Source: Prosthecobacter sp. (GTDB lineage: Bacteria > Verrucomicrobiota > Verrucomicrobiia > Verrucomicrobiales > Verrucomicrobiaceae). From it: DNA of 64,000 nt. This document shows positions 2,985 through 63,792 of this stretch, one piece after another; within the stretch, counting starts at the first letter, position 1, and every line of letters starts with the position of its first letter. The notes under the pieces are model-generated. The model ran no database searches. It was given only the letters and a program-made list of their open reading frames with translations, and was not told the DNA's origin. The position numbers and the translations under genes were made by a program. The stretch lies in contig JAIPJY010000028.1 of NCBI GenBank assembly GCA_021733925.1, forward strand, positions 21,709 to 85,708, read 5' to 3'.

Positions 2985-2993
2985 TCTTCTCCT

Positions 2994-4346: not shown

Positions 4347-4438
4347 AGATGGTCGTCTGAGTGCGGTCTTGACGCAATCCTGACAAATCTCCGGCGATTC
4401 CTTGAAGCCGTTCTGACGCAGCGAGGGTTAGAGTCAGC

Positions 4439-10161: not shown

Positions 10162-10163
10162 AC

Positions 10164-11240
10164 ATGACCTTAGATTCGAACGATCTTCCCTTCCTGCACG
10201 GCGGCCCGCTGGGCCGGGCGCGTTTCAAAGTGCAGCCGGAGGATTTTGTGGTGGAGGAGTTGCTGGGGTTTGAACCTTCGGGTGTGGGCGAGCATTGCCT
10301 CGTGTGGGCGGAAAAGCGAAATCTGGACAGCAACACGGCGGCGGCACGACTGGCAGACGCAGTGGGGATTCGGCGGCGGCTGGTCAGTCACTGCGGATTG
10401 AAGGACCGTCATGCGGTCACGCGTCAGTGGTTCAGCCTGCACATGCCGGGGCAGGAGTCGCCGGAACTGGTGGTGTTGGAATCCGAAGGGCTGCGCGTGC
10501 TGCGCATCACCCGCAACACGCGCAAGCTGCGGCGTGGCATTCATCTGGGCAATCGCTTCAACATCCGGCTGCGAGAGCCGAATTTTGATGCGACGCTTGC
10601 TGCGCAGCGCTGGCAGGCAATCACGGAGAAGGGCGCTCCGAATTTCTTTGGCTCACAACGCTTCGGCAATGAAGGGCAAAACGTGGCGAAGGCGCAGGCG
10701 ATGTTTCGCGGCGAATTCACGCCGGGAGATCGCCTGCTGCGTGGCATTCTGCTTTCCGCCGCGCGCAGTCATCTCTTCAATGCCGTGGTGGCCGGCCGCA
10801 TGGCACGCGGGAGCTGGGACAAACCGCTGGCAGGTGAAGTCTTCGGCTTCGCCGACAACGGCACAATTCTGCTGCCGGAAAATCAGCGTGGCGATGAAGT
10901 CGCACGATTTGAAAAAGGCATCGTCGAACTCACCGCGCCACTATGGGGCAGTGGTGAACTGCAAAGTGTGGGGGAGGTGCGCAGCCTCGAACAGGAACTG
11001 CTGGCTGGGTTTCCTGACATCACCGCCGGACTCGAAGCCTTCGGACTGCGGCAGGAGCGCCGCGTGATGCGGCTGCGTCCGCTTGATTCCACGTTTGAGG
11101 TGCTGGAAAATGGCGACCTAAAAATCTGCTTTGATCTGGCCAAGGGAACGTATGCCACGACCTTGCTGAGTGAACTGGCAGAGCTGGATGAATCCGGCGG
11201 TGATGCGGAAGCATCGTGTATTCAGCGCAATGAAGGGTGA
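10164..11240 (+). CDS. truD: tRNA pseudouridine(13) synthase TruD
   Basis: TruD isomerises uridine 13 of tRNA to pseudouridine. The 358-residue protein has the characteristic N-terminal FKVQPEDFVVEE segment, the catalytic motif GLKDRHA with D81 (equivalent to Asp80 of the E. coli enzyme), the NFFGSQRFG motif, and a KGTYATTLLSEL ending typical of the family. The start at 10164 gives the normal family N-terminus; an in-frame ATG at 10107 lies inside the upstream gene. The 2-base spacing from the FMN dehydrogenase gene suggests co-transcription without an obvious functional tie. Confidence 0.94.
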   Translation: MTLDSNDLPFLHGGPLGRARFKVQPEDFVVEELLGFEPSGVGEHCLVWAEKRNLDSNTAAARLADAVGIRRRLVSHCGLKDRHAVTRQWFSLHMPGQESPELVVLESEGLRVLRITRNTRKLRRGIHLGNRFNIRLREPNFDATLAAQRWQAITEKGAPNFFGSQRFGNEGQNVAKAQAMFRGEFTPGDRLLRGILLSAARSHLFNAVVAGRMARGSWDKPLAGEVFGFADNGTILLPENQRGDEVARFEKGIVELTAPLWGSGELQSVGEVRSLEQELLAGFPDITAGLEAFGLRQERRVMRLRPLDSTFEVLENGDLKICFDLAKGTYATTLLSELAELDESGGDAEASCIQRNEG

Positions 11241-38751: not shown

Positions 38752-40017
38752 ATGTACCTTTTCAAAACAACAGCAGCGCTGGTGCTGGCCCTGGCGGCGG
38801 CGAACGCTGCCGACGGCAGCACGGCAGCCAATACCAATTTCATTCATCGCCTCATTGGTGAGGCGGTGACCAAGCACCCCAAGGTCGGCGCAGCGGATGC
38901 GCGGACGCAGGCCGCCGCATCGGCCGCCCGTGGAGTTCGACTGTGGCAGGATCCGCAGGTCGGGCTGGGGATGATGGCGGCCAACAACATGCGCCGCAGA
39001 GTCAGGGGCGACATTCTGGCCAGCATCGACCAACCCTTGCCGCGCCTGAGTTTGTACAAGGCGGAGAAGCGCAAAGCAAACGCGGCCGAACTGGCGCAGC
39101 AGGCCACTCAGCAGCAAACAGCAAATGAACTGGGCCTGTCTGTGGCGCAGGCCGTGCTGGAACTCGCTCTGGCAGATGAAGTGATTCGTCTGCAGGCGGA
39201 GAATCTCGCGTGGCTGGGCACCCTCGTGAAGACCGCCGAAGAGCGTTCCAAGAACCCGAACGCCACAGCCACGGAGACGCTGCGGCTGGAAAGTGAATTC
39301 GCCGTGCGCGCACAGACACTGGCGAGTGCAAAGCGCCAGCGTGCGCAGTTTGCCACCACGCTGAACCTGCTGCTGGTGCGCCCGCCGGAGGCACCATGGG
39401 CACCGCTGATGCTGCCTGCGCACGCGGAGGAAATTTTCAATTCGATCGTGCTGAAGGTTCGGCTGGAGCGTGACAATCCGCAGCTCGGCGCCATGCGGCA
39501 TATGGTCGAGGGAGCACAGGCGGAAGCGGATGCAGCGCGGGCGCGAAAGAAGCCGGTGTTTTCGGTGGGCACGCAATACTTCACTTACTCAGGCGGCTCC
39601 ATCAATGACTCGATGCTGGTGTTCGGTTTCAAAATGACGCTGCCATGGTTCAACAGCAGGGTTTACAAGGCGGACATTGAGCGTGCGGACCATCTGCGTG
39701 CTGCCTCGCAGCAGGATTTGGATGCGGAGCAGCGTGAGCTCTACACTCAGCTCACAGCTTTGATCACCGAGGCGAAGAACCAGCAGCAGCTTGCGGAGGC
39801 CTACACTGACGAGGTTCTGCCAAAGTCGGAGCAGGCGATCAAGACATTGCAAAACGCGTGGGTGTCCTCCAAGGCCACACTTCTCGAAGTGTTGGATGCC
39901 CAACGCCTGCTGCTTGATGCGCGGCAGGAACAAAAGCGCGCACTCGCCGCGCGGCACGCCGCATCGTATTCGCTCTCGGCCCTGGTCGGCGGCCTGACCA
40001 AAACTCCAATTCGTTAA
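38752..40017 (+). CDS. TolC-family outer-membrane efflux protein (CusC/CzcC-like)
   Basis: The 421-residue protein has a Sec signal (MYLFKTTAALVLALAAANA/A) and no lipobox, unlike the first TolC protein. Long helices carry OEP features: SIDQPLPRLSLYKAEKRKANAAELAQ, the coiled segment around residues 115-215, and WVSSKATLLEVLDAQRLLLDARQEQ near the end. It should form the outer-membrane exit duct for the downstream adaptor and CusA-type pump; the adaptor gene begins 4 bases after its stop. Confidence 0.88.
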   Translation: MYLFKTTAALVLALAAANAADGSTAANTNFIHRLIGEAVTKHPKVGAADARTQAAASAARGVRLWQDPQVGLGMMAANNMRRRVRGDILASIDQPLPRLSLYKAEKRKANAAELAQQATQQQTANELGLSVAQAVLELALADEVIRLQAENLAWLGTLVKTAEERSKNPNATATETLRLESEFAVRAQTLASAKRQRAQFATTLNLLLVRPPEAPWAPLMLPAHAEEIFNSIVLKVRLERDNPQLGAMRHMVEGAQAEADAARARKKPVFSVGTQYFTYSGGSINDSMLVFGFKMTLPWFNSRVYKADIERADHLRAASQQDLDAEQRELYTQLTALITEAKNQQQLAEAYTDEVLPKSEQAIKTLQNAWVSSKATLLEVLDAQRLLLDARQEQKRALAARHAASYSLSALVGGLTKTPIR

Positions 40018-40021
40018 ACCC

Positions 40022-41728
40022 ATGAAAATTTTCCTCACACTCCTCTGCATTGCAGCTGCTCTCGGCGGCGGCTGGTTCCTTCGCGATCACTTTGGCGGCA
40101 TGGCCATGGCAACAGCCACTCCGTCTGCTGAACGCAAAGTTCTCTTCTATCAAAGCGCCATGCATCCATGGATCAAAAGCGACAAACCCGGGCGCTGCAC
40201 CATCTGCGGCATGGCGCTGACGCCGGTTTATGAAGGAGAGAAGGGGCTCGATGTATCGAGCGGTGGCGACACGGTGGTGCTCACGCAATCGCAGATCCAG
40301 GTGCTGCATGTCGAAACGGCCGAGGCCAAAGTGCAGCCGCTCAGCATGACCTTGCGCGTCGCCGGCAGTCTTGAGGAGGATGCCTCGCGCCACCGGATTC
40401 TCTCCTCCTACATCGACGGCCGCATTGACAAGCTCTACGTGAACTTCATGGGAGCACAGATCAAGGAAGGGCAGCCGCTGGTGGAGTTTTACAGCCCAAC
40501 ACTGCTCCAGGCCGAGCGCGACTATCGGCAGCTCACGGGTGATTTGAAAAAGAACACGGGCTTGCGCCTCCGTCAGATGGGGCTGGCTCCCGCGCAGATC
40601 GCGGCGCTTGAGACCAAGTCTGGTGACGCCCTGACCTCGCAGATTCTCGCCCCAGTCAGCGGTACCGTGGTGGAGCAGAAGGTGTTTGAAGGGCAGTACG
40701 TCAAGGAAGGGGATAAGCTCTTCGAGATCGCCGATTTCTCGACCATGTGGTTTCAGTTCCGCGCGTATGAGCAGGACATGCCATGGATTCAGATCGGCCA
40801 AAGTGTGACGGTCACCACGCCATCGCTTCCGGGCAAATCCTTTGAAGGCAAGGTCACTTTCATCGATCCGAATTTCGATGATGCGACGCGCTCCACCAAG
40901 GTGCGCGTGGAACTGGCGAATCCGCTCATCAATGATCGCCGCATGCTTCTTTATCGCCTCTATGCGGATGGTGATTTGAAAGTGGATGTTCCATCCGTTC
41001 TCGCCGTGCCGCGCTCGGCGGTGATTGAGGCCGGTCCGCAGGCTGTGGTCTATGTGGAGCAGGGCGGCGGTGCGTATGCGCGCACGGTGGTGAAACTGGG
41101 ACGCCACGGCGACTCGCTGATTGAAATCATGTCCGGCCTCAAGGCGGGTGACCGGGTTGTGACAAACGGTAACCTGCTCATTGACGGGCAGGCGGAGATG
41201 AACCGCTCCTTCATGACCCCGGTGGAGCCTATGAAACCTGCCGCACCTCTTGCAGAGCTGACCGACAAACAAAAGCAGGCAATCGACGCCTTCATCAAGG
41301 TGGCGGATGCGATGGCCAAAGCCCTCGCTGCAGATGATCTGCCCGAGTTCAACAACGCCAGCGAGCCAGCGATGATGCTGACGGGTGACCTGGTGACCTC
41401 GCTGCGCTCACCCGAAGGCATTTCTGAAACACTCGATGCACTCGACAAGGCCCGGCATTTCCATGGCTTCGACGACATCGCCCAGGCACGAATGGCTTTC
41501 CACAAATTCAGCGTCGCCGCCACCGCCGTACTGGAGCCGCTGCGCATGGCCGAAGGTGTGCCAGCCTTCGATGTGTGGGAATGCTTCATGGTGCATCAGG
41601 CCATTCCCGGTGCGCCGAAGAAGGGGCATTGGCTGCAGGCTCATGGTCGTGCCGGTGAAAATCCGTTCTTTGGCAAAGAGATGCTGAACTGCGCCAAGGA
41701 AATCAAACATGGAGGCGACAAGCCATGA
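40022..41728 (+). CDS. CusB-like RND adaptor with heavy-metal-binding and DUF3347-type domains
   Basis: The 568-residue adaptor has an N-terminal anchor or signal (FLTLLCIAAALGGGWFL). Residues about 40-72 form a heavy-metal-binding domain (YQSAMHPWIKSDKPGRCTICGM; Met, His and the CTIC cysteines). The adaptor core (about 90-400) includes APVSGTVVEQKVFEGQYVKEGD and the beta-barrel. The C-terminal part (about 410-560) matches DUF3347, with WECFMVHQAI and FFGKEMLNCAKEI. Such domains are thought to hand periplasmic copper or silver to the pump. Its stop overlaps the CusA start by 4 bases, so expression is coupled. Confidence 0.91.
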   Translation: MKIFLTLLCIAAALGGGWFLRDHFGGMAMATATPSAERKVLFYQSAMHPWIKSDKPGRCTICGMALTPVYEGEKGLDVSSGGDTVVLTQSQIQVLHVETAEAKVQPLSMTLRVAGSLEEDASRHRILSSYIDGRIDKLYVNFMGAQIKEGQPLVEFYSPTLLQAERDYRQLTGDLKKNTGLRLRQMGLAPAQIAALETKSGDALTSQILAPVSGTVVEQKVFEGQYVKEGDKLFEIADFSTMWFQFRAYEQDMPWIQIGQSVTVTTPSLPGKSFEGKVTFIDPNFDDATRSTKVRVELANPLINDRRMLLYRLYADGDLKVDVPSVLAVPRSAVIEAGPQAVVYVEQGGGAYARTVVKLGRHGDSLIEIMSGLKAGDRVVTNGNLLIDGQAEMNRSFMTPVEPMKPAAPLAELTDKQKQAIDAFIKVADAMAKALAADDLPEFNNASEPAMMLTGDLVTSLRSPEGISETLDALDKARHFHGFDDIAQARMAFHKFSVAATAVLEPLRMAEGVPAFDVWECFMVHQAIPGAPKKGHWLQAHGRAGENPFFGKEMLNCAKEIKHGGDKP

Positions 41729-44700
41729 TCGAGCGCATCATCGACTGGAGTCTGAAGAACCGCTTTCTCGTCGCGTGTGGAGCGCTGCTCATCATCGCAA
41801 TGGGTGTGCGTGCGATTTATCTCACGCCGGTGGATGCGATTCCTGATCTCACGGAGAACCAGGTGCTCGTCTATGCCGACTACATGGGCCGCAGTCCGCA
41901 GGAGGTGGAGGATCAGGTGACTTATCCACTGTCCACCGGCCTGCAGGGCCTCGCGGGTGTGAAGGAGGTGCGTGCGACGTCGATGTTCGGCTTCTCGCTG
42001 CTCACCATCATCTTCGAGGAGCGCATTGATCAATACTTTGCCCGCTCACGTGTGCTGGAGAGGCTGAACTACCTGCAAGGCGCGATGCCCGAAGGTGTGA
42101 AGCCGCAGCTTGGCCCTGATGCCTCGGGGTTGGGCTGGGTGTATCAGTACTATCTCGATGTCGATGCCACAAAGGCTCCGAACGGCGGCTACGATCTGGC
42201 GGAACTGCGCTCACTGCAGGACTGGTACATCCGCTATCAACTCGCCAGCGTGCAGGGAGTGGCCGAGGTGGCGAGCATCGGCGGCTTTGTGAAGCAGTAT
42301 CAGGTGGAGCTGAACTCCACCAAGATGCGCACCGCGAACGTCACGCTGATGGATGTGATGACGGCGGTGCGGGACTCAAATCTCAACGTCGGCGGCAAGG
42401 CGTTGGAGGAAAACGGTGCGGAGTTTGTGCTGCGCGGCATCGGACTGGTCACGAGTCCCTCCGACCTCGAACTCGTCACTGTGAAGGCGGTGGGGGGAAC
42501 GCCGATCTACTTAAAGGACATTGCCACCGTGCAAATTGGCGGCGACTTCCGGCGTGGCGCGCTCGATTTAAATGGCCACGAGGCCGTGGGCGGCACTGTG
42601 GTCATGCGCACCGGCGAAAATGCCAAGGCGGTGATCGAGCGCATCAAGGAGAAGATCGCCCAACTCGCGCCGAGCCTGCCACCAGGCATCACCATCAAAT
42701 CATTCTATGACCGCAGCGAGCTGATCGACAACACCATCGACACGCTCAAGCATGCGCTGCTGGAGGAGTTCATCCTCGTCACGCTCGCGCACATCATCTT
42801 CCTCTGGCACTTCCGCAGCATTCTCATCGTCACGCTGCCGCTGCCGATCTCCATTTTGATTTCATTCCTGCTGATGAAGGAGTTCGGCATCACCAGCAAC
42901 ATCATGTCCCTCACAGGCATCGCCATCGCCATCGGTGTGCTGGTGGATGCGGCCATCGTGGTCACTGAAAATGTGATCCGGCACTGTGAGGAGGCGGAGA
43001 TGAAGAAAGGCGGAAGGCTTGATGCCAAGGAGACCTGGGAGGTCTCGCGCACGGCCTGCATTCAGGTGGGCCGCCCGATCTTCTTTGCGATGGCGATCAT
43101 CATCCTGGCTTTCGTTCCCGTGTTTGCACTGACGGGTCAGGAGGGGAAGCTGTTTCATCCGCTGGCCTTCACCAAAACCTTTGCGATGATCGGCTCCACG
43201 TTGCTCGCGGTCACGCTGGTGCCGGTGCTGTGTTCGCTGCTCGTGCGCGGGCCGTTTCATTCGGAGGAAAACAACGTGGTTATGAAGGTCCTGATGCGTC
43301 TGTATGAGCCGACGCTCAACTGGGCGCTCAGTCATCGTAAAACGGTGGTCTCCTCGGCCATGCTCATTCTCTCCGTGGCATTGCTCATCGCCTTTGGCTT
43401 GCCGCGTTCCACGGTGAAGCAGATGCGCGACGCTGGGTATCCGCGTCTCGCGGAAGCCGTTGCCGGATTTGGCCGGGAGTTCATGCCGCCACTCAACGAA
43501 GGCAGTTTGCTCTACATGCCGGTGCTGATGCCAAAAACGGGGCTCAAGGAAATCCAGCGCGTCATGTCGTGGCAGGACCAGGTCATCGCCGAAGCGCCGG
43601 AAGTCGCCTCCGTCGCGGGCAAGCTCGGTCGTTTTGACACCGCCACAGACCCCGCCCCCACCGAAATGCTGGAGACCACGATCATGCTCAAGCCGGAATA
43701 CATTCCTGACGGCCGCTGGAGTGTGAAACGCAATCCCGCCTGGCGTGCGGGCATGACGGTGGAGAAACTGAAGGCCGAACTCACCGAGAAGATGAAGCAG
43801 GTGCCTGGCTACGTGCCCGCATTTCTGCAGCCCATCGAAAATCGCATCCTCATGCTCTACACCGGCATTCGTGCGCAGGTCGGCGTGAAGATCTACGGCG
43901 ACAACCTCGACAAGATTCAGCGCAAGGCCTTCGAGGTCGAAAAACTCATCAACGGCATCGAAGGCGCGGCAGGCGTCTCACCATCACGTGTGCAGGGCAA
44001 GCCCTACCTCAACATCCAGGTAGATCGCGTGGCCATGGCGCGCTACGGCCTCAGTGCGAAGGATGTTCTTGATGCCGTTGAGGTTTCCATCGGCGGCAAA
44101 AACGTCAGCACCACCATTGAAGGCCGCCAGCGCTTCCCCATTCAGATCCGCGTGCAGCGCAGCGAGCGGGACGACATTGAAAAACTCAGCAGCATCCTTG
44201 TCGCCAGCCGTGCCGGCATGGCCCCGCCGGGTTCCGCCGCCATGATCACGGCGGGTGGCGCTCCTGCCATCGCCTACATCCCGCTCGGCATGGTAGCAAA
44301 GATCACGCGTGACGTTGGTGCGAACGAAATCGCCAGCGAGGACGGCCGTCTGCGTTCCTTCGTGCAGGCCAATGTACAGGACCGCGACCTTGGCAGCTTC
44401 GTGCAGGAGGTGGAGGAGAAGCTCAACACCATCCAGTGGGAAGGGATGACCTACAAGCTGACCGGTGAGTATGAGAACCAGCGCCGCTTTGTGCAGACCA
44501 TGCTCATCGTCTTTCCCATCGTGCTGCTCATCATCTTTGTGCTGCTCTACATCGTCTATCACAGCGCGCTGGAGGCCGCGCATGTCATGCTCGCGGTGCC
44601 GTTCGCACTGAGCGGAGGCGTGCTGCTGCAAAAACTGCTCGGCTACAATTTCAACGGCGCGGTCTGGGTTGGCTACATCGCCCTCTTTGGCACCGCAGTA

Positions 44701-45060
44701 CAGACCGGCGTCGTCATGGTGGTGTATCTCGAAGAGACCGTAAAGTCACGCATGGCGCAGCTCGGCAGCGCCTTCGCCTACTCAGACCTCGTGCAGGCGG
44801 TGAAGGACGGCGCACGTCTGCGCCTGCGCCCGAAGGTGATGACCGTTGCCACCATCGTTGCTTCATTGCTGCCCATCATGTGGAGCCACCGCCAGGGGGC
44901 CGAGGTGATGCAGCCGCTGGCCACGCCTGTCATCGGCGGCATGATTTCCAGCCTGATCCACATCCTCATCGTCACACCCGTGATCTTTCTCTGGCTGCGC
45001 GGACGCGAATTCCAGCGCGGCACACTCCAAGGTTCTCTCGTTCAGGACGAATCGAAATAA
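41725..45060 (+). CDS. CusA/CzcA-family heavy-metal RND efflux pump, Cu(I)/Ag(I) type
   Basis: The 1111-residue inner-membrane pump starts MIERIIDWSLKNRFLV, as CusA proteins do. PVDAIPDLTENQVLVY, the proton-relay helix IGVLVDAAIVVTEN and the periplasmic segments EFMPPLNEGSLLYMPV, EMLETTIMLKPE and RILMLYTGIRAQVGVKIYGD belong to the monovalent-cation (CusA) branch, where periplasmic methionines carry Cu(I)/Ag(I). It is the pump of the second tripartite system here and is coupled to the CusB-like gene by a 4-base overlap. The cognate regulator may be the adjacent CnrYXH-like trio or the two-component pair at 27.8 kb (inference). Confidence 0.94.
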   Translation: MIERIIDWSLKNRFLVACGALLIIAMGVRAIYLTPVDAIPDLTENQVLVYADYMGRSPQEVEDQVTYPLSTGLQGLAGVKEVRATSMFGFSLLTIIFEERIDQYFARSRVLERLNYLQGAMPEGVKPQLGPDASGLGWVYQYYLDVDATKAPNGGYDLAELRSLQDWYIRYQLASVQGVAEVASIGGFVKQYQVELNSTKMRTANVTLMDVMTAVRDSNLNVGGKALEENGAEFVLRGIGLVTSPSDLELVTVKAVGGTPIYLKDIATVQIGGDFRRGALDLNGHEAVGGTVVMRTGENAKAVIERIKEKIAQLAPSLPPGITIKSFYDRSELIDNTIDTLKHALLEEFILVTLAHIIFLWHFRSILIVTLPLPISILISFLLMKEFGITSNIMSLTGIAIAIGVLVDAAIVVTENVIRHCEEAEMKKGGRLDAKETWEVSRTACIQVGRPIFFAMAIIILAFVPVFALTGQEGKLFHPLAFTKTFAMIGSTLLAVTLVPVLCSLLVRGPFHSEENNVVMKVLMRLYEPTLNWALSHRKTVVSSAMLILSVALLIAFGLPRSTVKQMRDAGYPRLAEAVAGFGREFMPPLNEGSLLYMPVLMPKTGLKEIQRVMSWQDQVIAEAPEVASVAGKLGRFDTATDPAPTEMLETTIMLKPEYIPDGRWSVKRNPAWRAGMTVEKLKAELTEKMKQVPGYVPAFLQPIENRILMLYTGIRAQVGVKIYGDNLDKIQRKAFEVEKLINGIEGAAGVSPSRVQGKPYLNIQVDRVAMARYGLSAKDVLDAVEVSIGGKNVSTTIEGRQRFPIQIRVQRSERDDIEKLSSILVASRAGMAPPGSAAMITAGGAPAIAYIPLGMVAKITRDVGANEIASEDGRLRSFVQANVQDRDLGSFVQEVEEKLNTIQWEGMTYKLTGEYENQRRFVQTMLIVFPIVLLIIFVLLYIVYHSALEAAHVMLAVPFALSGGVLLQKLLGYNFNGAVWVGYIALFGTAVQTGVVMVVYLEETVKSRMAQLGSAFAYSDLVQAVKDGARLRLRPKVMTVATIVASLLPIMWSHRQGAEVMQPLATPVIGGMISSLIHILIVTPVIFLWLRGREFQRGTLQGSLVQDESK

Positions 45061-51551: not shown

Positions 51552-54083
51552 TTAAGGGGCAGGCGTCTCGGCCGGAGCCGCAACGTCAGTGGTTTCGCGC
51601 GCGTCGGCGGCAAATTTGAGTCGCTTGGTTTCCTCGTCGTGGGAGACCTTGACCGTGTCACCTTCGCGGATGTCACCGCGCAGGAGATGTTCGGCCAGCG
51701 GGTCTTCGATGTTTTTCTCCACGGCACGGCGCATCGGGCGCGCACCATACTGCGGATCAAAGCCCTCTTTCATGAGGAACTCGCGGGCGCTGTCGTCGAG
51801 CGTGATGTGGATGTTCTTCTTCTTGAGGCGGAGAACCACTTTGCTGACTTCGAGATCGACAATCTTGTTGAGCTGCTCCTTCTCGAGCATGCGGAAGATG
51901 ACGATGTCGTCGAGGCGGTTGAGGAACTCGGGCTTGAAGAACTTCTTCGCGGCTTCGGTGATCTTGCCTTTGATGCCGGCGTTGTCGGCGGCGTCTTCCT
52001 GCATGGCCATGAAGCCCAGGCTGGTCTGGCGTTTGATCTGCTCCGCACCGATGTTGGAGGTGAGGATGACGATGGTGTTCCGGAAGTCGATCTTGCGGCC
52101 GAAGTTGTCGGTGACCTGACCTTCTTCGAGAATCTGCAGGAGCAGATGCATCACATCCGGGTGCGCTTTTTCGACTTCGTCGAACAAGATCACGGAGTAA
52201 GGGCGACGGCGCACCGCTTCGGAAAGCTGGCCGCCTTCTTCGTAACCGACGTATCCCGGAGGCGCACCAATCAGACGGCTGGCGGTGTGCTTCTCCATGT
52301 ACTCGGACATGTCGATCTGGATCAGCGAATCAGCCGTGCCAAACATGAATTCGGCGAGGTTCTTCGCGAGGAAGGTTTTGCCGACACCCGTTGGGCCGAG
52401 GAAGAGGAAGGAGCCGATCGGACGGCGTGGATCCTTCAAGTCGGCGCGGGAGCGGCGCAGGGCCTTGCTGATGGCGATGACGGCTTCGTCCTGGCCGATG
52501 ACCTTGCCCTTGAGCTCGGTTTCCATCTTGAGGAGTTTCTCGGCTTCAGCCTGTTCCATACGCTGCAGCGGAACGCCGGTCCATTTGGACACGACGGACA
52601 TGATGTCCTCTTCAGTGACATCAACGATGCGCTCCTGATTGTTGGTGCGCCAGGTTTCCAGCACATCATCAAAACGTTTCTTCGCGTTCTTCTCACGATC
52701 ACGCAGGCTCGCGGCTTTTTCGAAATCCTGTTCCTTGATGGAACCTTCCTTCTCGACGCGGATCTCTTCGATCTCGCCTTCGATCACCTTGAGTTCGGGC
52801 GGACGTGTCATGGCGGCGATGCGGGCCTTGGAGCCGGCTTCGTCCATGATGTCGATCGCCTTGTCAGGCAGGAAACGGGAGGGCAGGTAGCGTGAGCTGA
52901 GATTCACCGCGGACTTGAGCGCGTCTTCGCTGTACTTCGCCTTGTGGTGCAGCTCGTATTTGCCACGCAGGCCAAAGAGAATCTTGATGGCATCCTCGAC
53001 GGAGGGCTCCTCGATCTTCACGCTCTGGAAGCGGCGTTCGAGCGCGGAGTCCTTCTCGATGTATTTGCGGTATTCATTGAGCGTGGTGGCGCCAACGCAT
53101 TGCAGTTCGCCACGGCTGAGCGCGGGTTTGATGATGTTGCTGGCATCCATCGCTCCTTCAGCGCCGCCTGCACCGACGATGGTGTGCAACTCGTCGATGA
53201 AGAGAATGACGTTCTTGTTGCGGCGGATTTCATCCATGACCGCCTTGATGCGCTCTTCAAACTGGCCGCGATACTTTGTGCCAGCGACCATCAGGGCGAG
53301 ATCGAGAGTGATGACTTTCTTGTCACGCAGGATTTCAGGGACGTTGCCGGCGGCAATCTCCTGGGCCAGGCCTTCGACGATGGCGGTCTTGCCAACACCG
53401 GCTTCTCCGATGAGCACCGGGTTGTTCTTGGTGCGGCGGCAAAGGATCTGAATGACACGGGCGATTTCTTCCGAGCGGCCGATGACGGGGTCCATTTCAC
53501 CTTTGATGGCGAGCTCGGTGAGGTCGCGACCGAAGGCTTTGAGGGCCGGGGTCTTCTCGTTCTTCTTCTTGTCACCTGCGGGCGTGTTGCCAGTGGGGTT
53601 GGCGGGTTCGCTTTCCTCCTCTTCCTCTTCGTTCTGGGAGGAGAAGTTGGGGTCGAGTTCCTTGAGGATTTCGCTGCGCGCCTTGTCGAGGTTCACATCG
53701 AGATTGCGCAGCACCTGAGCGGCCACGCCCTCGCCTTCGCGGAGGAGTCCGAGCAGGATGTGCTCCGTGCCGACGTAGCTGTGATTGAGGGCCTTGGCTT
53801 CCTTCGAGGCCAGGGCGAGCACCTTCTTCACTCTCGGTGTGTAGGGAATGTTGCCGACCATCTTGGTCTCAGGGCCGGAGCCGACCTGTTGCTCGACCTG
53901 CATGCGCACGGTCTCGAGGTCGAGGCCGAGCTTGGTCAAAACGTTGACTGCGACCCCCTGGCCGAGTTTGATCAGTCCAAGCAGGAGATGCTCCGTGCCG
54001 ACGTAATTGTGGTTGAAGCGATCGGCTTCCTTGCGGGCAAGGGCCAGAACCTGTTGGGCGCGTGGAGTGAAATTATTCATCAT
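51552..54083 (-). CDS. clpC: ATP-dependent Clp protease ATPase subunit ClpC
   Basis: The 843-residue AAA+ unfoldase contains two N-terminal Clp repeats (about 5-75 and 80-150, each with NHxYVGTEHxLLGL), an acidic linker, AAA-1 with Walker A GEAGVGKT, a middle domain with UVR-type helix ([18 protein letters not shown], about 425-445) and AAA-2 with GPTGVGKT. The middle domain identifies ClpC rather than ClpA or ClpB. It feeds substrates to ClpP, and McsB-phosphorylated arginines serve as a degradation tag in Bacillus. Its start overlaps the mcsB stop by 11 bases. Confidence 0.96.
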
Positions 54084-55197
54084 GGGTGGTGGAGGTGGTG
54101 CCTCCGTTGTTAGATTGTGATGGCGGAAAACTACCCGGGCCGTCGATGGATTGCAACCGAGTGCGGGTTAAATCAGCGCGCATGCTGTCTCGCTCCTCAG
54201 GGGACAATTCACGCGCAGCATTGAGCTGCAGATGCGCAGGTTGAATTTCAAGCAAAAGCATGTCGATCAGGCTGCGGTCGCAGTTCCCGACAAGGTCGAG
54301 ATCAGCACCGAGACGAAGCATGGATAGCAGATTCAATGCCTCTTTGGAGGTAAGGATGTGCGCATACCTCAGAATGGCGAATGCACGCCCGATTTGGTCG
54401 CGCAGCATGGTCTGGTGGTCCTCCTTGAGCTTGGCCCGGGCCGTGACTTCGGAGCGGACGACGCCCTCGATGACTTTTTCGATCTGGGCGATGATTTCAG
54501 GCTCCGCTTCACCCAGCGTGTGTTGGTTGGAAATCTGGAACAGGTTGCCGAGAGCTTCAGTGCCTTCGCCATAGAGACCACGCACAGCGAGGCCGATCTT
54601 GCCAATGGCCTTGATCACGGGGTTGATCTGTTCGGTGAGCACCAGCGCTGGCAGATGCAGCATCACGGAGGCGCGCATGCCGGTGCCGAGATTGGTGGGG
54701 CAGGCGGTGAGGTAGCCGAGTTTGGGGTCGAACGCATAGGGCAGCAGGCCTTCCAGCTCTGTGTCCACTCGGTCCACCACTTCAAAGGCGCTGGTGAGGT
54801 TCAGCCCCGGACGGATGCCTTGGATGCGGAAGTGATCCTCCTCATTGATCATGATGGAGATGCTCTGCTTGCGGTCCACCACCACGGCGCAGCCGGAGGA
54901 TCGTGCCGCATGCTCACGGCTGACGAGATGGCGCTCCACCAGCACCTGTTTGCGGATCTTGCTGAGTTCGGTGTAGTCCTCGCTGTAGCCGTCCCGCATT
55001 TCGGGCAGCTCTTCCACCACCGGGCGTGCACGCTCCAGCAGCTCGATGCGCTGTCGTTCCTGGCTGAAACCAGGAAACGGGTAGCCCCGAAGATTGCGAG
55101 CAAGACGCACTCGCGAGGTCATGACGACGTCGGAGTGCGGCCCCGCGCCTTTCATCCAGTCGGCGGGGTTCTTGATCAATGTGGCAAAACGCATCAT
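54073..55197 (-). CDS. mcsB: protein arginine kinase McsB
   Basis: The 374-residue phosphagen-kinase-fold enzyme phosphorylates protein arginines. Hallmarks are VVMTSRVRLARNLRGYPFP, the NEEDH catalytic loop (INEEDHFRIQGI), and GYLTACPTNLGTGMRASVMLHLPAL with the active-site cysteine. McsB needs McsA as activator and marks proteins for ClpCP. The gene lies between mcsA (76 bases upstream) and clpC (overlapping). The 45 C-terminal residues extend past the usual end with a Ser/Thr/Gly-rich tail. Confidence 0.95.
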   Translation of the reverse strand: MMRFATLIKNPADWMKGAGPHSDVVMTSRVRLARNLRGYPFPGFSQERQRIELLERARPVVEELPEMRDGYSEDYTELSKIRKQVLVERHLVSREHAARSSGCAVVVDRKQSISIMINEEDHFRIQGIRPGLNLTSAFEVVDRVDTELEGLLPYAFDPKLGYLTACPTNLGTGMRASVMLHLPALVLTEQINPVIKAIGKIGLAVRGLYGEGTEALGNLFQISNQHTLGEAEPEIIAQIEKVIEGVVRSEVTARAKLKEDHQTMLRDQIGRAFAILRYAHILTSKEALNLLSMLRLGADLDLVGNCDRSLIDMLLLEIQPAHLQLNAARELSPEERDSMRADLTRTRLQSIDGPGSFPPSQSNNGGTTSTTHDE

Positions 55198-58842: not shown

Positions 58843-59151
58843 GTGGTCATATGCGGGCGGAATGGAGCGAAGGGGCGAAAACCATGACAGACCCGGATGG
58901 TGCACGGTTGTCCCGCAAGGCTCACATCTGCCCTGCTGTGGCAGTGGCTGCCGCGCCGCCGTTTTTTTTCATATCAGGCAGCTTTTTTTGGAAGTGAGGC
59001 AGGCCCTTCCCACACCCCAAACCCCGTGGTGCATCTCGTCTTAATATGAATGTAGATGCAAAAAAGCAGCTTTGGCATTTTTGCGTTTACTTTTGATGGG
59101 CTCAGGGATAATGCTTCATCTAAGTCGAGTACAAACTTAAGCTATAGACCT
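58843..59151. other. intergenic region upstream of the alpha/beta hydrolase gene
   Basis: No gene or RNA is recognisable in these 309 bases. An AT-richer part near 59081-59112 contains TTTACT and GATAAT 15 bases apart, a possible promoter that would favour the hydrolase start at 59152 over 59056. Two poly-T runs (58962-58969 and 58983-58989) are not attached to stable stems. Confidence 0.4.
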
Positions 59152-60249
59152 ATGCCTAAATACTGGATGATCAGCAACCGACTGTTCCGGCAAGGAAAAC
59201 CCACGCGCGAGGTTGGCAAGGTTTCCTACTGGACCACCGATGTGGACGACGCCTCCACCATCGACAAGTGGACGCAGGTCTCTTCAGCCGAATTCGAGAT
59301 GCAGCTCAAGCAGGCCGCGCTGGCCTTCCCTCTCATCTCCAAGGCCTCGGCGACCGCTTTCACCGCCCAGAGCGGTCAGCCGCCGGAGGCCATGCCCATG
59401 CTCGCCCAGCTGGCCGCGCATCAGGATCAGAAGCACGTCGGCTTCTTCGTCCACGGCTATAACAACGGCTTCACCGACGCCGCGCGGCGCTATCAGCAGC
59501 TCACCCGCGACCTCTTCGCCGGCCCGGACGGCCTCGGCCTCTGCATCTCCTTTGACTGGCCCTCCCTCGGCAGCATCCTCGGCTACCTCCCGGACCGCGA
59601 CCACGCCCAGGCATGTGCCGCCGACTTCACCGACATCCTCGGTCGTCTGCACGACTGGCTCCTCGTCAAACAAAAGGACGCGCAGAAAGCCCCCGAAGAC
59701 GGCTGCCGTGCCAAGATCTCCATCATCGCCCACAGCATGGGCAATTTCCTCCTCCATCGTGCCATGGGTGCCAGCTGGAAGCGGCAAAACCAGCCCCTCA
59801 GCGTCTCCCTCGTGAACCAGATCCTCATGGTGGCCGCCGATGTGGACAACGACCTCTTCGAGCCCGACAGCCAGGATGCCACTGATGGCTGCGCAGTCGC
59901 CAATCTCACGTACCGAGTCACCTCCTTGTACACCGGACGCGACACCGTGCTTGGCGCCTCCTCCGGGCTCAAGCACTTCGGCACGCGCCGCCTCGGCCGC
60001 AGCGGCCTGGCCAAGCGCCCGCCCACAGACGGCGTCAGCGGCAGCGTGGACAATGTCTGGGATGTGGACTGCTCCACCTTCTTCCCGTCGAAATACGACA
60101 GCATCCCCTTCATCGATGGCATCCCCATTCATGGCGCTTACTTCGTCACCCCTGCAGTCGTCAGTCTCATGAAGGAGATCCTCAAAGGCACCGATCGCAG
60201 CGCCCTGCAACACCGTGGCCTTCTCACCGGAAAAGCCTGGCCCGCCTAG
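59152..60249 (+). CDS. DUF900-type alpha/beta hydrolase
   Basis: The 365-residue protein has no signal peptide. An alpha/beta-hydrolase core is marked by VGFFVHGYNNGFTDAARRY (oxyanion strand with HGYN) and the nucleophile elbow SIIAHSMGNFLLHRA with Ser in AHSMGN. These match the DUF900 esterase/lipase-like family. The catalytic His may be in PIHGAYF near the end. The start at 59152 avoids an in-frame extension to 59056 that overlaps the possible promoter. Its substrate is unknown. It lies 179 bases before the di-haem cytochrome gene. Confidence 0.75.
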   Translation: MPKYWMISNRLFRQGKPTREVGKVSYWTTDVDDASTIDKWTQVSSAEFEMQLKQAALAFPLISKASATAFTAQSGQPPEAMPMLAQLAAHQDQKHVGFFVHGYNNGFTDAARRYQQLTRDLFAGPDGLGLCISFDWPSLGSILGYLPDRDHAQACAADFTDILGRLHDWLLVKQKDAQKAPEDGCRAKISIIAHSMGNFLLHRAMGASWKRQNQPLSVSLVNQILMVAADVDNDLFEPDSQDATDGCAVANLTYRVTSLYTGRDTVLGASSGLKHFGTRRLGRSGLAKRPPTDGVSGSVDNVWDVDCSTFFPSKYDSIPFIDGIPIHGAYFVTPAVVSLMKEILKGTDRSALQHRGLLTGKAWPA

Positions 60250-60428
60250 CACATTTCGCACGTCGTGCCGGCGCACTGACCACTCCCCATTCTCCTTTTT
60301 CACTCCTCCAAACCGCCACGCCAAGGCTCGCGCCTTGATCGAGGACGAATCCAGGCGCCACCCCTTTAAGCCTCTCTCACCCCACTTTCGGTCAACTCAT
60401 CCGCGCTCCGTCCACTCCACCATCCATC

Positions 60429-62258
60429 ATGAAAAAGCCACTGCCCATCATCGCCCTCATTCTCCTCGCAGGCGTGCTCCTCTACTTCAGATACTCCGCC
60501 GGCACCATCATTGACACGGGCGCACCGGTCGTGAACTCCAAAGACAAGGCCGTCAATCTGGAGCAGGGCTGGTCTGTCCGCACGCAGCAGGCCTACTACT
60601 TCACCAATCAAGGCTCCCGCATTCTCCCTTACGCGTGGTTTCTGGCCCTCGAAATGCCCGACAGCCAGGAGCTCTTTCGCGGCGACGACAACATGCGCAG
60701 CCTCCGCTACCTGCCCACCGACCCCGATTCCAAATGGAACCCCGACGGCCTGCCCGTCGGCTTTGTCAAAGGCCTCGACTCCAACAAGCAGGCCTGGATG
60801 GGCATGACCTGCGCCGCCTGCCACACCGGCCAGATCGCCTACAACGGCACGCAGATCCGCATCGATGGCGGCCAGACCATCGCAGACGTGGACGCTTTCG
60901 ATCTCAGCCTCGTCGCCGCCATGAAAAAGACCTCCGAGGATGAGGAAAAGTTCGGCCGCTTTGCCAGCCAAGTCCTAGGGCTGACCGGGACCGACGAAGC
61001 CAAGGCCACCCTGCGCGACGCGCTGAAAAAGCGCACCGCCGCACTCCACGACCGCAATGAGGCCAATCATTACCAGAGCCCCAACATGCCCCAGTACGGC
61101 TACGGCCGCACGGATGCCATTGGCCAGATTTTCAACAAGGTGCTGTACCACATGAACAACGTCCCTGACAACGCCCGCCCCTCCGACGCTCCTGTCAGCT
61201 ACCCCTTCCTTTGGGGCACACATCAGTCAGACGTCGTGCAGTGGACCGGCTTCGCCCCCAACGGCCCGCTCAACATCGGCTCCCTCATCCGCAATGGCGG
61301 CGAAGTTCTCGGTGTGTATGGAGAGATGGACATCCCCGACGATAAAAAAGTGCACAAATACAAGTCCTCCATCATCGTGGAAAGCATCGGCCTTCTGGAG
61401 CAGTGGGTGGCCACCCTGCGCTCGCCCAAGTGGCCCGGCAAAATCCTTCCGCCCATCGATCAGGCGCTCGCCGACAAAGGCAAGGTTCACTACGACAAGC
61501 ACTGCGTCTCCTGCCACGCCGCCGTCAGCCGTGAAAACGAAGGCATGAACTACAAGTCCGTCCTCGTGGACATCGACAAGGTCAAAACCGACCCCCGCGA
61601 GTACGACAACATGATCAAGCTCCGCAAAGCCGGAAAATTCGCCGGTCGCAAGCAGGCAGGTCTCATCGGCAAAGTGATCCCCGAAGAAACCACCGGGCTG
61701 GATCCTCTGATCCATTCCGTCATCGGCGGCCTGCTCGAGCACCCGCTCGAATCCCTCAAGGCCAACATCACCATCGCCAAAGGAGAGATCACTGCCGAGA
61801 CCATCAACGACGCCGTCAACACCCTCCAGTCTGACAACCCCGTAGAGGACACCACCACCGTGCTTGAGCGCATCCTCGCAGACTTCAACCAGCGCGCCAT
61901 GAATCTCCGCACCAACCCCGTGCTCAACAAAAACCTCCCCATTGCGCCCAGGGTGTACAAAGCCCGCCCTCTCACCGGCATCTGGGCCACACCGCCATAT
62001 CTGCACAATGGCTCCGTGCCCAACCTCTGGGAAATCCTCCTGCCCGCCGACAAACGCTCCAAGACCTTCCACCTCGGCACCCGCGAGTACGACCCCGAGA
62101 AGGCAGGCTACAAAGACATGCCCGAATTTGACGGCAAGCCCTCCTTCACCTTCGACACCGCCCTCCCCGGCAACACCAACGTCGGTCACGAATACGGGGT
62201 GACGGAGCTCAATGACGCCCAGCGCACAGAGCTCCTCGAATATCTCAAGACACTTTGA
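60429..62258 (+). CDS. membrane-anchored di-haem cytochrome c (CcpA/MauG/RoxA-like)
   Basis: The 609-residue protein has an N-terminal anchor (PLPIIALILLAGVLLYF) and an extracytoplasmic part with two covalent haem motifs, C128-A-A-C-H132 and C359-V-S-C-H363. Spacing, size and segments such as TGIWATPPYLHNGSVPNLWEIL place it in the di-haem peroxidase group that includes MauG and the rubber oxygenase RoxA. It could be a peroxidase, an oxygenase or an electron donor. The adjacent P450, 115 bases downstream on the same strand, is the most likely partner. Export requires cytochrome c maturation, not seen in this window. Confidence 0.88.
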   Translation: MKKPLPIIALILLAGVLLYFRYSAGTIIDTGAPVVNSKDKAVNLEQGWSVRTQQAYYFTNQGSRILPYAWFLALEMPDSQELFRGDDNMRSLRYLPTDPDSKWNPDGLPVGFVKGLDSNKQAWMGMTCAACHTGQIAYNGTQIRIDGGQTIADVDAFDLSLVAAMKKTSEDEEKFGRFASQVLGLTGTDEAKATLRDALKKRTAALHDRNEANHYQSPNMPQYGYGRTDAIGQIFNKVLYHMNNVPDNARPSDAPVSYPFLWGTHQSDVVQWTGFAPNGPLNIGSLIRNGGEVLGVYGEMDIPDDKKVHKYKSSIIVESIGLLEQWVATLRSPKWPGKILPPIDQALADKGKVHYDKHCVSCHAAVSRENEGMNYKSVLVDIDKVKTDPREYDNMIKLRKAGKFAGRKQAGLIGKVIPEETTGLDPLIHSVIGGLLEHPLESLKANITIAKGEITAETINDAVNTLQSDNPVEDTTTVLERILADFNQRAMNLRTNPVLNKNLPIAPRVYKARPLTGIWATPPYLHNGSVPNLWEILLPADKRSKTFHLGTREYDPEKAGYKDMPEFDGKPSFTFDTALPGNTNVGHEYGVTELNDAQRTELLEYLKTL

Positions 62259-62326
62259 GGGAACACGGATCGAACGGGAGTCAGGCAGGATTCGCCCAAC
62301 CGCCTTGTGCCGTCTTTCGGTCAGTT

Positions 62327-62353
62327 CACCCATCACCCATCACCCATCACCCA
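62327..62353 (+). repeat. CACCCAT short tandem repeat
   Basis: Nearly four head-to-tail copies of the 7-base unit CACCCAT occupy this stretch, ending 20 bases before the P450 start codon. The array lies in the 5' leader region, where length changes could alter expression. Confidence 0.85.
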
Positions 62354-62373
62354 CCACTCCCCAACGCGCCCTC

Positions 62374-63792
62374 ATGAAACTCAAACCCGTCCTCGCCCTC
62401 GCAGCCTCCGCCTGCGTGGTTTCCTGCTCCATCTTCGCCCCTATCAGTCGCACACATCCCAAGGATTCGCAGGCCTTCCTCAAGGACTACGACCGCCAGT
62501 GGCTTGAGGTCCTCAAGCTCAAGACCGTGTTCAACTGGCTGCAGGACAACTCGATTGAAACCTTCAAGGAAATGCGGGCGCAGCGCCCCATCATCACCAC
62601 CGCTCCGGTGCCGACCAAGGCCGGCCTGAAGTTCACCTCCACCGTTCTCGTCGCCAATCGCAAGGATGTCGTGGAGGTTCTCGACAACTGGGATGTCTTC
62701 ACCGTCCGCCTCTACGGCTCCAAGATGGACGACTGCATGGGGGCCTTCATGCTCGGCCGTGACGACACACGCTACAATCTGGTGGAGAAGCCCTACATGC
62801 GCCATCTCATGACCCCGGCGGACTTCCCGCGCATCAAGAGCCAGGTCGTTTCCCTCAGCCGCAAAGCCATCGCTGAAGGCACCCAGACCACCACCGACCC
62901 CAAGACTGGCAAATCCATCGGACGCATCGAGATCGTCAACAAGGTCGCCCGTCGCGTGCCCATTCTCCTCACCGGCACCTATGGCGGCTTCCCCGGCCCG
63001 GACGAGGCCTCCATGTTCCGCTGGTCGCGCGCCACCCAGGCCGACTTCTTCAAAAACATCAAGGCAGAGCCCCCGGTGCATGCCGATGCCATCAGGGCGG
63101 GGCATGAGATGACGGCCTACCTCGGCGGCCTCATCCAGGAAAAGCACGCCCTCCTCACCAAAAACCCGGGCGCCGAGGACACCATCCTCGCCCGCATGCT
63201 CAAAGAAGGCACCAACAAGGTGCAGGGCATCACCGACGACCGCATGATCATCCTCACCGCAGGCCTGCTCATCGGCGCCGGAGAGACCACCCAGACCGCC
63301 ATTTGCAAATGCCTCGCCGAGCTCTTCAGCCGCCCCGCCGAGCTTCAGGGTGCCATCAAAGCTGCTCGTGAAAACAACGACGAACTGCTCGGCCGCTACG
63401 TCTGGGAGGCTCTGCGCTTCCGCCCCGGAAACTCCGTGCTCCCACGCTACGCCGAGAAAGACTACGTGCTCGCCAAAGGCACCCCGCATGAAACCAAGAT
63501 CGCCAAAGGCTCCCTCGTGCTTGTCGGCACCCAGTCCGCCATGTTTGACGAAACCTTCGTCAAGAATCCCGAGCAGTTCCGCCTCGACCGCCCACAGAGC
63601 ATGTACATGATCCTCGGCTACGGCTGGCATCGCTGCCTGGGGGATCACATCAGCCTGATTCAGGTGCCGCAGATCATCAAAGCCCTCCTTCTCAAGAAAA
63701 ACCTCCGCCCCGCTCCCGGCAAAGACGGCCAGATCGACCTCAAAGGCGGCCCGTTCCCAGAGCAGTACATCCTCGAATACGACCTGGAATAA
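62374..63792 (+). CDS. cytochrome P450 with N-terminal lipoprotein signal
   Basis: The 472-residue protein has the main P450 landmarks: I-helix LLIGAGETTQTA, the ExxR pair E345 and R348 (WEALRFRP), and the haem loop GYGWHRCLGDH with axial C421. The N-terminus (MKLKPVLALAASACVVSCS) is a lipoprotein signal with lipobox VVSC at C18, so the enzyme is predicted to be lipid-anchored outside the cytoplasm, very unusual for bacterial P450s, which are soluble in the cytosol. The loop preceding Cys421 lacks the usual Phe (Tyr-Gly-Trp-His-Arg-Cys). It follows the exported di-haem cytochrome c, which could donate electrons. Confidence 0.86.
   Translation: MKLKPVLALAASACVVSCSIFAPISRTHPKDSQAFLKDYDRQWLEVLKLKTVFNWLQDNSIETFKEMRAQRPIITTAPVPTKAGLKFTSTVLVANRKDVVEVLDNWDVFTVRLYGSKMDDCMGAFMLGRDDTRYNLVEKPYMRHLMTPADFPRIKSQVVSLSRKAIAEGTQTTTDPKTGKSIGRIEIVNKVARRVPILLTGTYGGFPGPDEASMFRWSRATQADFFKNIKAEPPVHADAIRAGHEMTAYLGGLIQEKHALLTKNPGAEDTILARMLKEGTNKVQGITDDRMIILTAGLLIGAGETTQTAICKCLAELFSRPAELQGAIKAARENNDELLGRYVWEALRFRPGNSVLPRYAEKDYVLAKGTPHETKIAKGSLVLVGTQSAMFDETFVKNPEQFRLDRPQSMYMILGYGWHRCLGDHISLIQVPQIIKALLLKKNLRPAPGKDGQIDLKGGPFPEQYILEYDLE

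Follow-up and report, generated by a model that had tools for sequence, protein, structure and literature searches.

A cytochrome P450 with a lipoprotein-type signal beside a di-haem cytochrome c in Prosthecobacter, and its possible role in a two-step oxylipin module

The cytochrome–P450 gene pair

The DNA analysed here (the window) is a stretch of 64,000 nucleotides from contig JAIPJY010000028.1 of Prosthecobacter sp. (GCA_021733925.1). At its 3′ end it carries a gene for a di-haem c-type cytochrome (60429–62258, 609 amino acids) followed by a gene for a cytochrome P450 (62374–63792, 472 amino acids), both on the + strand and separated by 115 bases. The original prediction had described this pair as an exported di-haem protein beside an exported, lipoprotein-type P450; sequence and profile matches bear out both genes, and the description is supported by the sequence. 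The P450 stop codon is followed by 208 bases up to the end of the contig, which is also the end of the window, and anything 3′ of the P450 is therefore out of view.

The cytochrome matched NF040606, the model for ‘di-heme-cytochrome C peroxidase’, with 595.4 bits (E = 1.3e-178; cut-off 150) and contains a RoxA-like domain (PF21419, 63.7 bits). Its predicted export signal or membrane anchor is a hydrophobic N-terminal segment (MKKPLPIIALILLAGVLLYF..., 60429–60500, + strand). The haem c motifs CAACH (60810–60824, +) and CVSCH (61503–61517, +) are 231 residues apart, and c-type haem attachment takes place outside the cytoplasm. Their histidines, His132 and His363, are invariant in a 16-row alignment of the cytochromes, as is His587 in the motif GHE (62187–62189, +), a candidate distal ligand, while His526 lies in a PYLHNGSV motif (61995–62018, +). 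In a search of the PDB, the rubber oxygenase RoxA (4B2N) was the only chain found with the single sequence and by far the best with a profile. The C-terminal haem region and the overall kind of protein are common to both, but the inter-haem spacing of RoxA is 199 residues (available part of PMC4496055), and the RoxA, RoxB and RoxC models scored 62–75 bits against cut-offs of 900–1000, on which ground a rubber oxygenase identity was rejected. The RoxA-like half of the earlier label ‘MauG/RoxA-like’ fits the protein, whereas it is not MauG-like as a whole and has only a short ‘MauG motif’ in common with that enzyme.

Among described systems, the cytochrome can be compared with PA2077 and PA2078 (‘FadCcp’) of Pseudomonas aeruginosa, periplasmic di-haem relatives of RoxA. 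According to the available part of PMC4496055, PA2077 (10S-DOX) converts oleate into its 10-hydroperoxide and PA2078 (7,10-diol synthase) turns this into the diol. Compared by published positions rather than by direct sequence alignment, His132, His363, His526 and His587 of the window cytochrome resemble H130, H365, H543 and H603 of PA2078 in position only (H543 in PMC4496055 Table 1); the CXXCH spacing is 231 against 235–245 residues, and a PY(F/L)HNGSV motif is common to both. Around RoxA W302 and F317 the window cytochrome diverges, and no alignment to RoxA or PA2077 was obtained there. On the P. aeruginosa model, we propose the window cytochrome as a putative lipid dioxygenase.

The P450 matched PF00067 with 60.5 bits, and its AlphaFold model, built from a 27-sequence alignment, has a P450 fold with a mean predicted local distance difference test score (pLDDT) of 89.7. 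The model is confident from about residue 30 onwards, whereas residues 1–29 score under 50, as would a signal and linker detached from the rest of the protein. As had been predicted, the protein keeps the ExxR motif (Glu345-Arg348; 63406–63417, +) and the haem-thiolate cysteine, Cys421 in GYGWHRCLG (63634–63636, +); both are retained in 56 of 57 aligned P450 rows, the 57th having no letters there. The fold and these residues place it in the P450 superfamily. Its I helix reads Ala-Gly-Glu-Thr-Thr at residues 302–306 (63277–63291, +), with the acid–alcohol pair Glu304/Thr305. By structure and profile search, its closest matches are ordinary bacterial P450s, including CYP134A1 orthologues and CYP125.

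Partners of the P450 family

A single scan of GTDB species genomes, made with an alignment of two sequences, yielded 111 pattern matches, among which 56 P450 relatives were confirmed; this is a sample of the family rather than its full membership. The relatives belong to Pseudomonadota, Cyanobacteriota, Actinomycetota, Bacteroidota, Verrucomicrobiota and Gemmatimonadota, and 53 of the 56 have a putative lipid dioxygenase nearby, which is of one of three kinds unrelated to each other. A relative of the di-haem cytochrome stands beside the P450 at 16 loci, in the same direction, divergently or with the P450 first; it is split over two frames at L018 and L019 (numbers of this form denote our loci) and runs off the contig at L015. 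NF040606 was run on eight of these cytochromes and scored all of them above its cut-off (413–504 bits). At 33 loci, the partner is a cyclooxygenase-like homologue of the An_peroxidase (animal-haem-peroxidase) family, which starts at most about 85 bases after the P450 in 31 cases, 935 bases after it at L045 and 4.1 kb away on the other strand at L020. The cyclooxygenase-type YRWH motif is kept in 32 of these proteins, the exception (L061) being cut by a contig end. Four loci, all cyanobacterial, carry a lipoxygenase relative, at L028 with one gene between; a frame between the P450 and the lipoxygenase at this locus (9380–10786) resembles another P450 by eye. At the remaining three loci no partner was in view, namely L011, where the contig ends, L023 and the very divergent L059. 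The partners at L009, L010 and L022 were scanned with Pfam, and the remaining partner calls rest on tblastn.

A fourth kind of partner appeared outside this set. In 369 genomes of another class, nine carried the P450, seven of them new: five with the cytochrome, one beside a DyP-type peroxidase and one fused to such a peroxidase. Altogether, three further relatives outside the 56 stand beside or are fused to a DyP-type peroxidase. The fusion (L098, 2880–7151) has 1423 residues, joins a distant member of the P450 family to the peroxidase and adjoins a gene for a tetratricopeptide repeat (TPR) protein. On a Skermanella plasmid (L107, 4442–5944), the DyP-like gene directly precedes the P450, which has GGPPQPP in its I helix in place of GGxETT; the gene in front of it (2946–4460) had no Pfam match. 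Eleven plasmid records matched the P450, and the seven that were opened held two annotated di-haem peroxidases, three cyclooxygenase-like proteins, one DyP-like protein and one P450 with no partner in view. The first two are Methylobacterium records with cytochrome, regulator, P450 and peptidoglycan-binding protein. On the Rhizobium etli and Sinorhizobium medicae plasmids, the P450 is followed by a ‘peroxidase family protein’, an unannotated homologue of which is found in R. gallicum; on the Bradyrhizobium record the P450 lies at the very first bases, with no partner in view.

The I-helix residues vary with the partner. The acid before the O2-activating threonine is Glu in 55 of the 56 rows with that column and Asp in L059. 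Thr305 is kept in all 16 cytochrome-linked rows, the window's included, whereas the 33 cyclooxygenase-linked rows have Asn (19), Ser (10) or Thr (4) in this column, and three of the four lipoxygenase-linked rows have Gly. In further rows, Glu-Thr was seen in six cytochrome-linked and three cyclooxygenase-linked P450s, and Pro takes the place of the acid in three DyP-linked ones. Some hydroperoxide-using P450s are known to have a dispensable Asn close to the haem iron, where others have Thr (available part of PMC13049297).

Lipase genes recur near the family: patatin-like genes occur in five cytochrome-type loci, four of them distinct (L005 and L017, which are one contig; L016; L025; L064), and at three of the four lipoxygenase loci (L030, L022, L028) the upstream gene starts alike by eye and is Tle1-like in L030, the one scanned. 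A class-3 lipase gene lies near a cytochrome relative that lacks the P450. NTF2-like (DUF6841) genes were seen at L012 (5398–5835, cytochrome-type) and L030 (7355–7753, lipoxygenase-type), possibly encoding a shared product-handling protein, and an HbpS-like haem-degrading gene was seen at one P450 locus. In a motif scan of 57 loci that reached up to 4 kb from the P450, no ferredoxin or reductase was credible, 15 matches being judged wrong-frame by eye. Since many bacterial P450s also have no ferredoxin or reductase gene nearby, this absence is weak evidence. As a control, four loci with ordinary P450s gave none of the partner kinds at E ≤ 1e-3, namely L006–L008, each spanning about 3.7 kb, and the 10-kb locus of the genome's other P450 (L080). 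This control set is small, and most of its loci are shorter than those tested.

In a tree of 55 P450 rows, the lipoxygenase-linked rows form one group (100/100) that joins a cyclooxygenase-linked cyanobacterial P450 (99/94), which implies that the partner was probably exchanged in this cyanobacterial lineage. Partner type is strongly clustered on the tree, with five changes against a mean of 20.4 after shuffling. The P450 itself is sporadic among relatives of the window's genome. Five of 387 genomes of the phylum matched at E ≤ 1e-10, and only the window's genome and G126 (46% identity) are counted to the P450 family, the other three matches being 26–30% identical. In 68 genomes of the bacterial family (E ≤ 1e-20) and 366 of the order (E ≤ 1e-50), the window's genome alone matched, and in 296 genomes of another phylum the only match was the sample's centre genome itself. 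The cytochrome is likewise rare: NF040606 was found in 3 of 374 phylum genomes (E ≤ 1e-60), and relatives in 4 of 68 family genomes. Such sporadic presence suggests horizontal transfer.

The window cytochrome is 37–42% identical to those of L076–L078, from genomes without this P450, and 28–34% identical to the 12 other P450-linked ones in the 16-row alignment. This pattern pointed to an independent pairing in the window, an idea weakened by those cytochromes that do accompany a P450 at L095 and L096 (about 36% by blastp) and on the Methylobacterium plasmids (38%). The L076 cytochrome (4754–6466) is itself a lipoprotein-type NF040606 protein near the class-3 lipase gene (7229–8035), and the phylum search found nothing that matched this P450 in its genome, G235. 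Lipoprotein-type signals were also seen on the P450-linked cytochromes of L019 (2314–3687, LLVAGC) and L095 (3855–5762, SLAGC).

The lipoprotein-type signal and the translation start

The open frame of the P450 extends from 62212 to 63792, but translation most likely starts at ATG 62374 rather than at the first ATG of this frame. From there, the protein begins with MKLKPVLALAASACVVSC followed by Ser, in which lysines in the n-region precede an uncharged core and the lipobox VVSC. The predicted type II signal peptide is MKLKPVLALAASACVVS (62374–62424, +), and Cys18 (62425–62427, +) would be the lipidated residue at position +1.

In place of a signal-peptide program we used a rule of our own, which requires charge in the n-region, a core free of charged residues and a lipobox with Cys. 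It was positive in 15 of 200,000 random N-termini of P450 composition, so that the signal is unlikely to have arisen by chance. Applied to every ATG of the window followed by 35 open codons, on both strands, the rule was positive in 7 of 1299 cases, the P450 ATG among them; two others, at 29613 (+) and 36597 (−), have the look of true lipoproteins and likewise end in -SC.

The original prediction had held that homologues without the signal would count against it, and the rule was indeed positive in none of the 56 homologue rows, whichever start was tried (55 with an N-terminus; L061 is a C-terminal fragment). By eye, none of the additional homologues from the other class and the plasmids has a signal either, with L095 ambiguous and the start of L109 not determined. 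At L095, the frame extends upstream into a hydrophobic stretch with a Cys, but the would-be lipobox contains Glu; an inner Met was taken as the start, and the case is unsure. A second P450 with such a signal was sought in the family (68), order (366), phylum (387), other class (369) and other phylum (296) genomes, and the few members found there read as signal-less. Many homologues start just a few residues ahead of a YLxxYD-like stretch whose counterpart in the window P450 lies around residue 39; the latter therefore looks like a standard P450 that is extended at its N-terminus by about 33 residues. By these comparisons, the apparent signal is peculiar to the window P450 and not a family trait; its absence from homologues does not show that it is unreal.

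Alternatively, translation may begin at GTG 62416 (residue 15), giving an ordinary cytosolic P450 with a chance signal-like sequence in front, in which case lipid hydroperoxides would enter the cell and the module would work as in the homologues. A GTG start leaves 24 residues before Tyr39, in line with the 6–35 found in 41 of 54 homologue rows (counted from the first possible start), and the other family members read as signal-less. No Shine–Dalgarno sequence was visible by eye at either ATG 62374 or GTG 62416. The third-position G+C of the 33 extra codons (0.73) falls between that of the upstream DNA (0.63) and that of the P450 body (0.84), and composition therefore does not decide the start. 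However, GTG is the rarer start codon, and chance would have had to place a complete type II signal directly behind an ATG, at the low frequencies given above; moreover, at least two of the other six rule-positive ATGs look like genuine lipoproteins. We consider the GTG start rather unlikely and, as a matter of judgement, real export of the window P450 probable.

Proposed reaction, alternatives and surrounding genes

Taken together, the gene pair, the motifs, the signal-like N-terminus, the predicted fold and the recurrent pairing of this P450 family with unrelated dioxygenase-type proteins are observed. To account for them, we propose that cytochrome and P450 form a two-step oxylipin module outside the cytoplasm. 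In the first step, the exported cytochrome would add O2 to an unsaturated lipid (a fatty acid being likeliest) and so yield a hydroperoxide, as PA2077 does. In the second, the P450, anchored by a lipid at Cys18, would split the O–O bond at its haem-thiolate and then rearrange the product or re-insert the oxygen, acting as an isomerase, a diol or epoxy-alcohol synthase, or a lyase. This step is modelled on the P450 domains of fungal dioxygenase–P450 fusions, on CYP74 and on prostacyclin synthase. Such a substrate already contains activated oxygen, so that the P450 would require neither NAD(P)H nor a ferredoxin or reductase and could work outside the cytoplasm. Substrate, reaction, actual export and lipidation of the window pair are what we infer here. 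The coupling to a dioxygenase that is typical of hydroperoxide-using P450s is found at 53 of 56 loci, where the partners, judged from their families, would make hydroperoxides.

More broadly, the P450 family, taken as widespread in bacteria, may be an interchangeable second enzyme for four unrelated kinds of oxidase (di-haem cytochrome c, cyclooxygenase-like, lipoxygenase and DyP-type), acting without a reductase on their lipid hydroperoxides, with the window member having acquired a lipoprotein signal beside a dioxygenase outside the cytoplasm and thus representing the first natural exported P450. We hold this wider statement to be somewhat less likely than not. For the window pair itself, our confidence lies only a little on the favourable side, mainly because the P450s of the window's own group lack the apparent marks of reductase-free chemistry that other parts of the family bear.

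Several observations weigh against the proposed module. Loss or change of the acid–Thr pair, a common but not universal trait of hydroperoxide-using P450s, is not seen in the window P450, and Glu-Thr is kept in all 22 cytochrome-c-linked P450s with that region, the window's included; ordinary O2 activation is therefore most conceivable in this very group. Haem-ligand mutants of PA2078 stay active, so this second-step enzyme does not need its haem histidines (available part of PMC4496055), and kinship to PA2077/PA2078 alone does not fix the roles of the haems here. In a Trp-rich region that possibly lines the active haem, the window cytochrome is unlike most P450-linked relatives, the Methylobacterium one being similar, and its structure model (pLDDT 53) is too poor for use. 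The partner counts are not independent events, as many loci are close kin and the 28 actinobacterial rows are one clade, and the window P450 stands alone on a long branch (1.38 in one tree, 1.44 in another) without a supported sister. Concerning export, a strict PROSITE-form lipobox pattern, judged by eye, was narrowly missed (Cys14, Lys4), and as no other family or order genome matched, conservation can give no guidance on the signal. The cytochrome-c-linked homologues are signal-less though their partner must be exported, so that sharing one compartment is not a general rule. Finally, no measured activity was found for any member of the P450 family.

Other readings of the pair were also considered. 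The P450 could be a conventional monooxygenase outside the cytoplasm to which the di-haem cytochrome passes electrons or oxidising equivalents, as the original prediction had suggested. This would suit the intact Glu304-Thr305, and electron passage between haems is established for MauG and bacterial di-haem peroxidases. However, other members of this P450 family stand beside cyclooxygenase-like proteins and lipoxygenases, neither of which carries electrons, and none of the neighbouring window genes was recognisable as encoding a reductant for the cytochrome. We rejected the electron donor as the main reading on the former ground and regard the whole reading as improbable. The suggestion of peroxide-derived oxidising power came close, except that the lipid-dioxygenase-like partners more likely provide an organic hydroperoxide as the substrate.

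Similarly improbable is a role in detoxification, whereby the P450 would reduce or dismute lipid hydroperoxides from its partner or from oxidative damage and protect the envelope without a signalling product; the DyP-type partners and the one HbpS-like gene would agree with it, whereas the pairing with dioxygenase kinds and lipases points to synthesis. Least probable is an isoprenoid or rubber-like substrate whose cleavage products, released by a RoxA-like cytochrome, the P450 would trim: the RoxA-like domain and the PDB result favour it, but the RoxA, RoxB and RoxC scores and the membership of the sister P450s' partners in fatty-acid enzyme families, with lipases nearby, speak against it.

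The two-step module we prefer has partial counterparts. In the FadCcp system, the second step is carried out by another di-haem homologue, and here by the proposed P450. Fungal linoleate diol, allene oxide and epoxy-alcohol synthases join a haem dioxygenase of the cyclooxygenase kind to a self-sufficient P450 with a bacterial-type HxC Cys pocket; the available part of PMC13049297 leaves the origin of this P450 at ‘an ancient bacterial ancestor’. These are single polypeptides, whereas the bacterial family has separate genes (one DyP fusion aside), four unrelated partner kinds and, in the window, an apparently exported P450. The Nostoc punctiforme 10S-DOX and its hydroperoxide lyase are likewise a bacterial two-step module of separate genes starting with a cyclooxygenase relative, but their second enzyme is catalase-related and not a P450 (available part of PMC13049297). 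CYP74 enzymes (allene oxide synthase, hydroperoxide lyase) and the prostacyclin and thromboxane synthases are P450s that rearrange peroxides without a reductase. Plant allene oxide synthase and prostacyclin synthase have an I-helix Asn (same source), as do 19 of the 33 cyclooxygenase-linked relatives, while the window P450 has Thr; the family studied here comes closest, in sequence as in fold, to ordinary bacterial P450s such as CYP134A1 and CYP125.

In the open-access literature, we found no exported or periplasmic P450; ‘secreted cytochrome P450’ appeared only, by title, in a tree-fungus review and a genome paper on a fungal tree pathogen. The P450 family and a bacterial dioxygenase–P450 pair were undescribed among the matches listed from that literature, which included the available parts of PMC13049297, PMC11719350 and PMC9524268 and left subscription journals mostly uncovered. 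As far as seen, the pieces are thus of known kinds, while a separate-gene, partner-swapping bacterial P450 and its export are apparently undescribed.

The textbook P450 is an intracellular enzyme that depends, in bacteria, on reductases supplied with NAD(P)H. If a P450 received a hydroperoxide from its partner, it could work wherever haem can be loaded, the periplasm included. Partner swapping would directly predict the type of substrate for dozens of bacterial P450s of this family, and the module may be a bacterial, unfused counterpart of the fungal fusions that make oxylipin signals. If the products are oxylipins, bacterial oxylipin chemistry would be widened well beyond the Pseudomonas and cyanobacterial systems.

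Regarding the surrounding DNA, an alpha/beta hydrolase (PF05990, DUF900; 59056–60249, +), possibly a lipid-releasing one, is encoded just upstream of the cytochrome; its relatives occur in 5 of 48 genomes of the genus at E ≤ 1e-10, the window's genome counted. The composition of the pair is unremarkable, with a third-position G+C of 0.82 (cytochrome) and 0.84 (P450) against 0.73 and 0.80 for two neighbours. The two genes share an 18-base element with 15 identical positions, CTTTCGGTCAACTCATCC at 60385–60402 (+), 26 bases 5′ of the cytochrome ATG, and CTTTCGGTCAGTTCACCC at 62314–62331 (+), 42 bases 5′ of the P450 ATG. When its three variable positions are left free and one mismatch is tolerated, it has only one further occurrence in the 7.3 Mb genome, and shuffled upstream regions matched as well in 4 of 200 cases; it is possibly a control site common to both genes. 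Farther upstream, overlapping frames at 51552–55197 resemble what we take to be ClpC and a McsB-type protein arginine kinase, and those at 38752–45060 presumably encode an outer membrane factor, an adaptor and a resistance–nodulation–division (RND) pump, together a metal efflux set.

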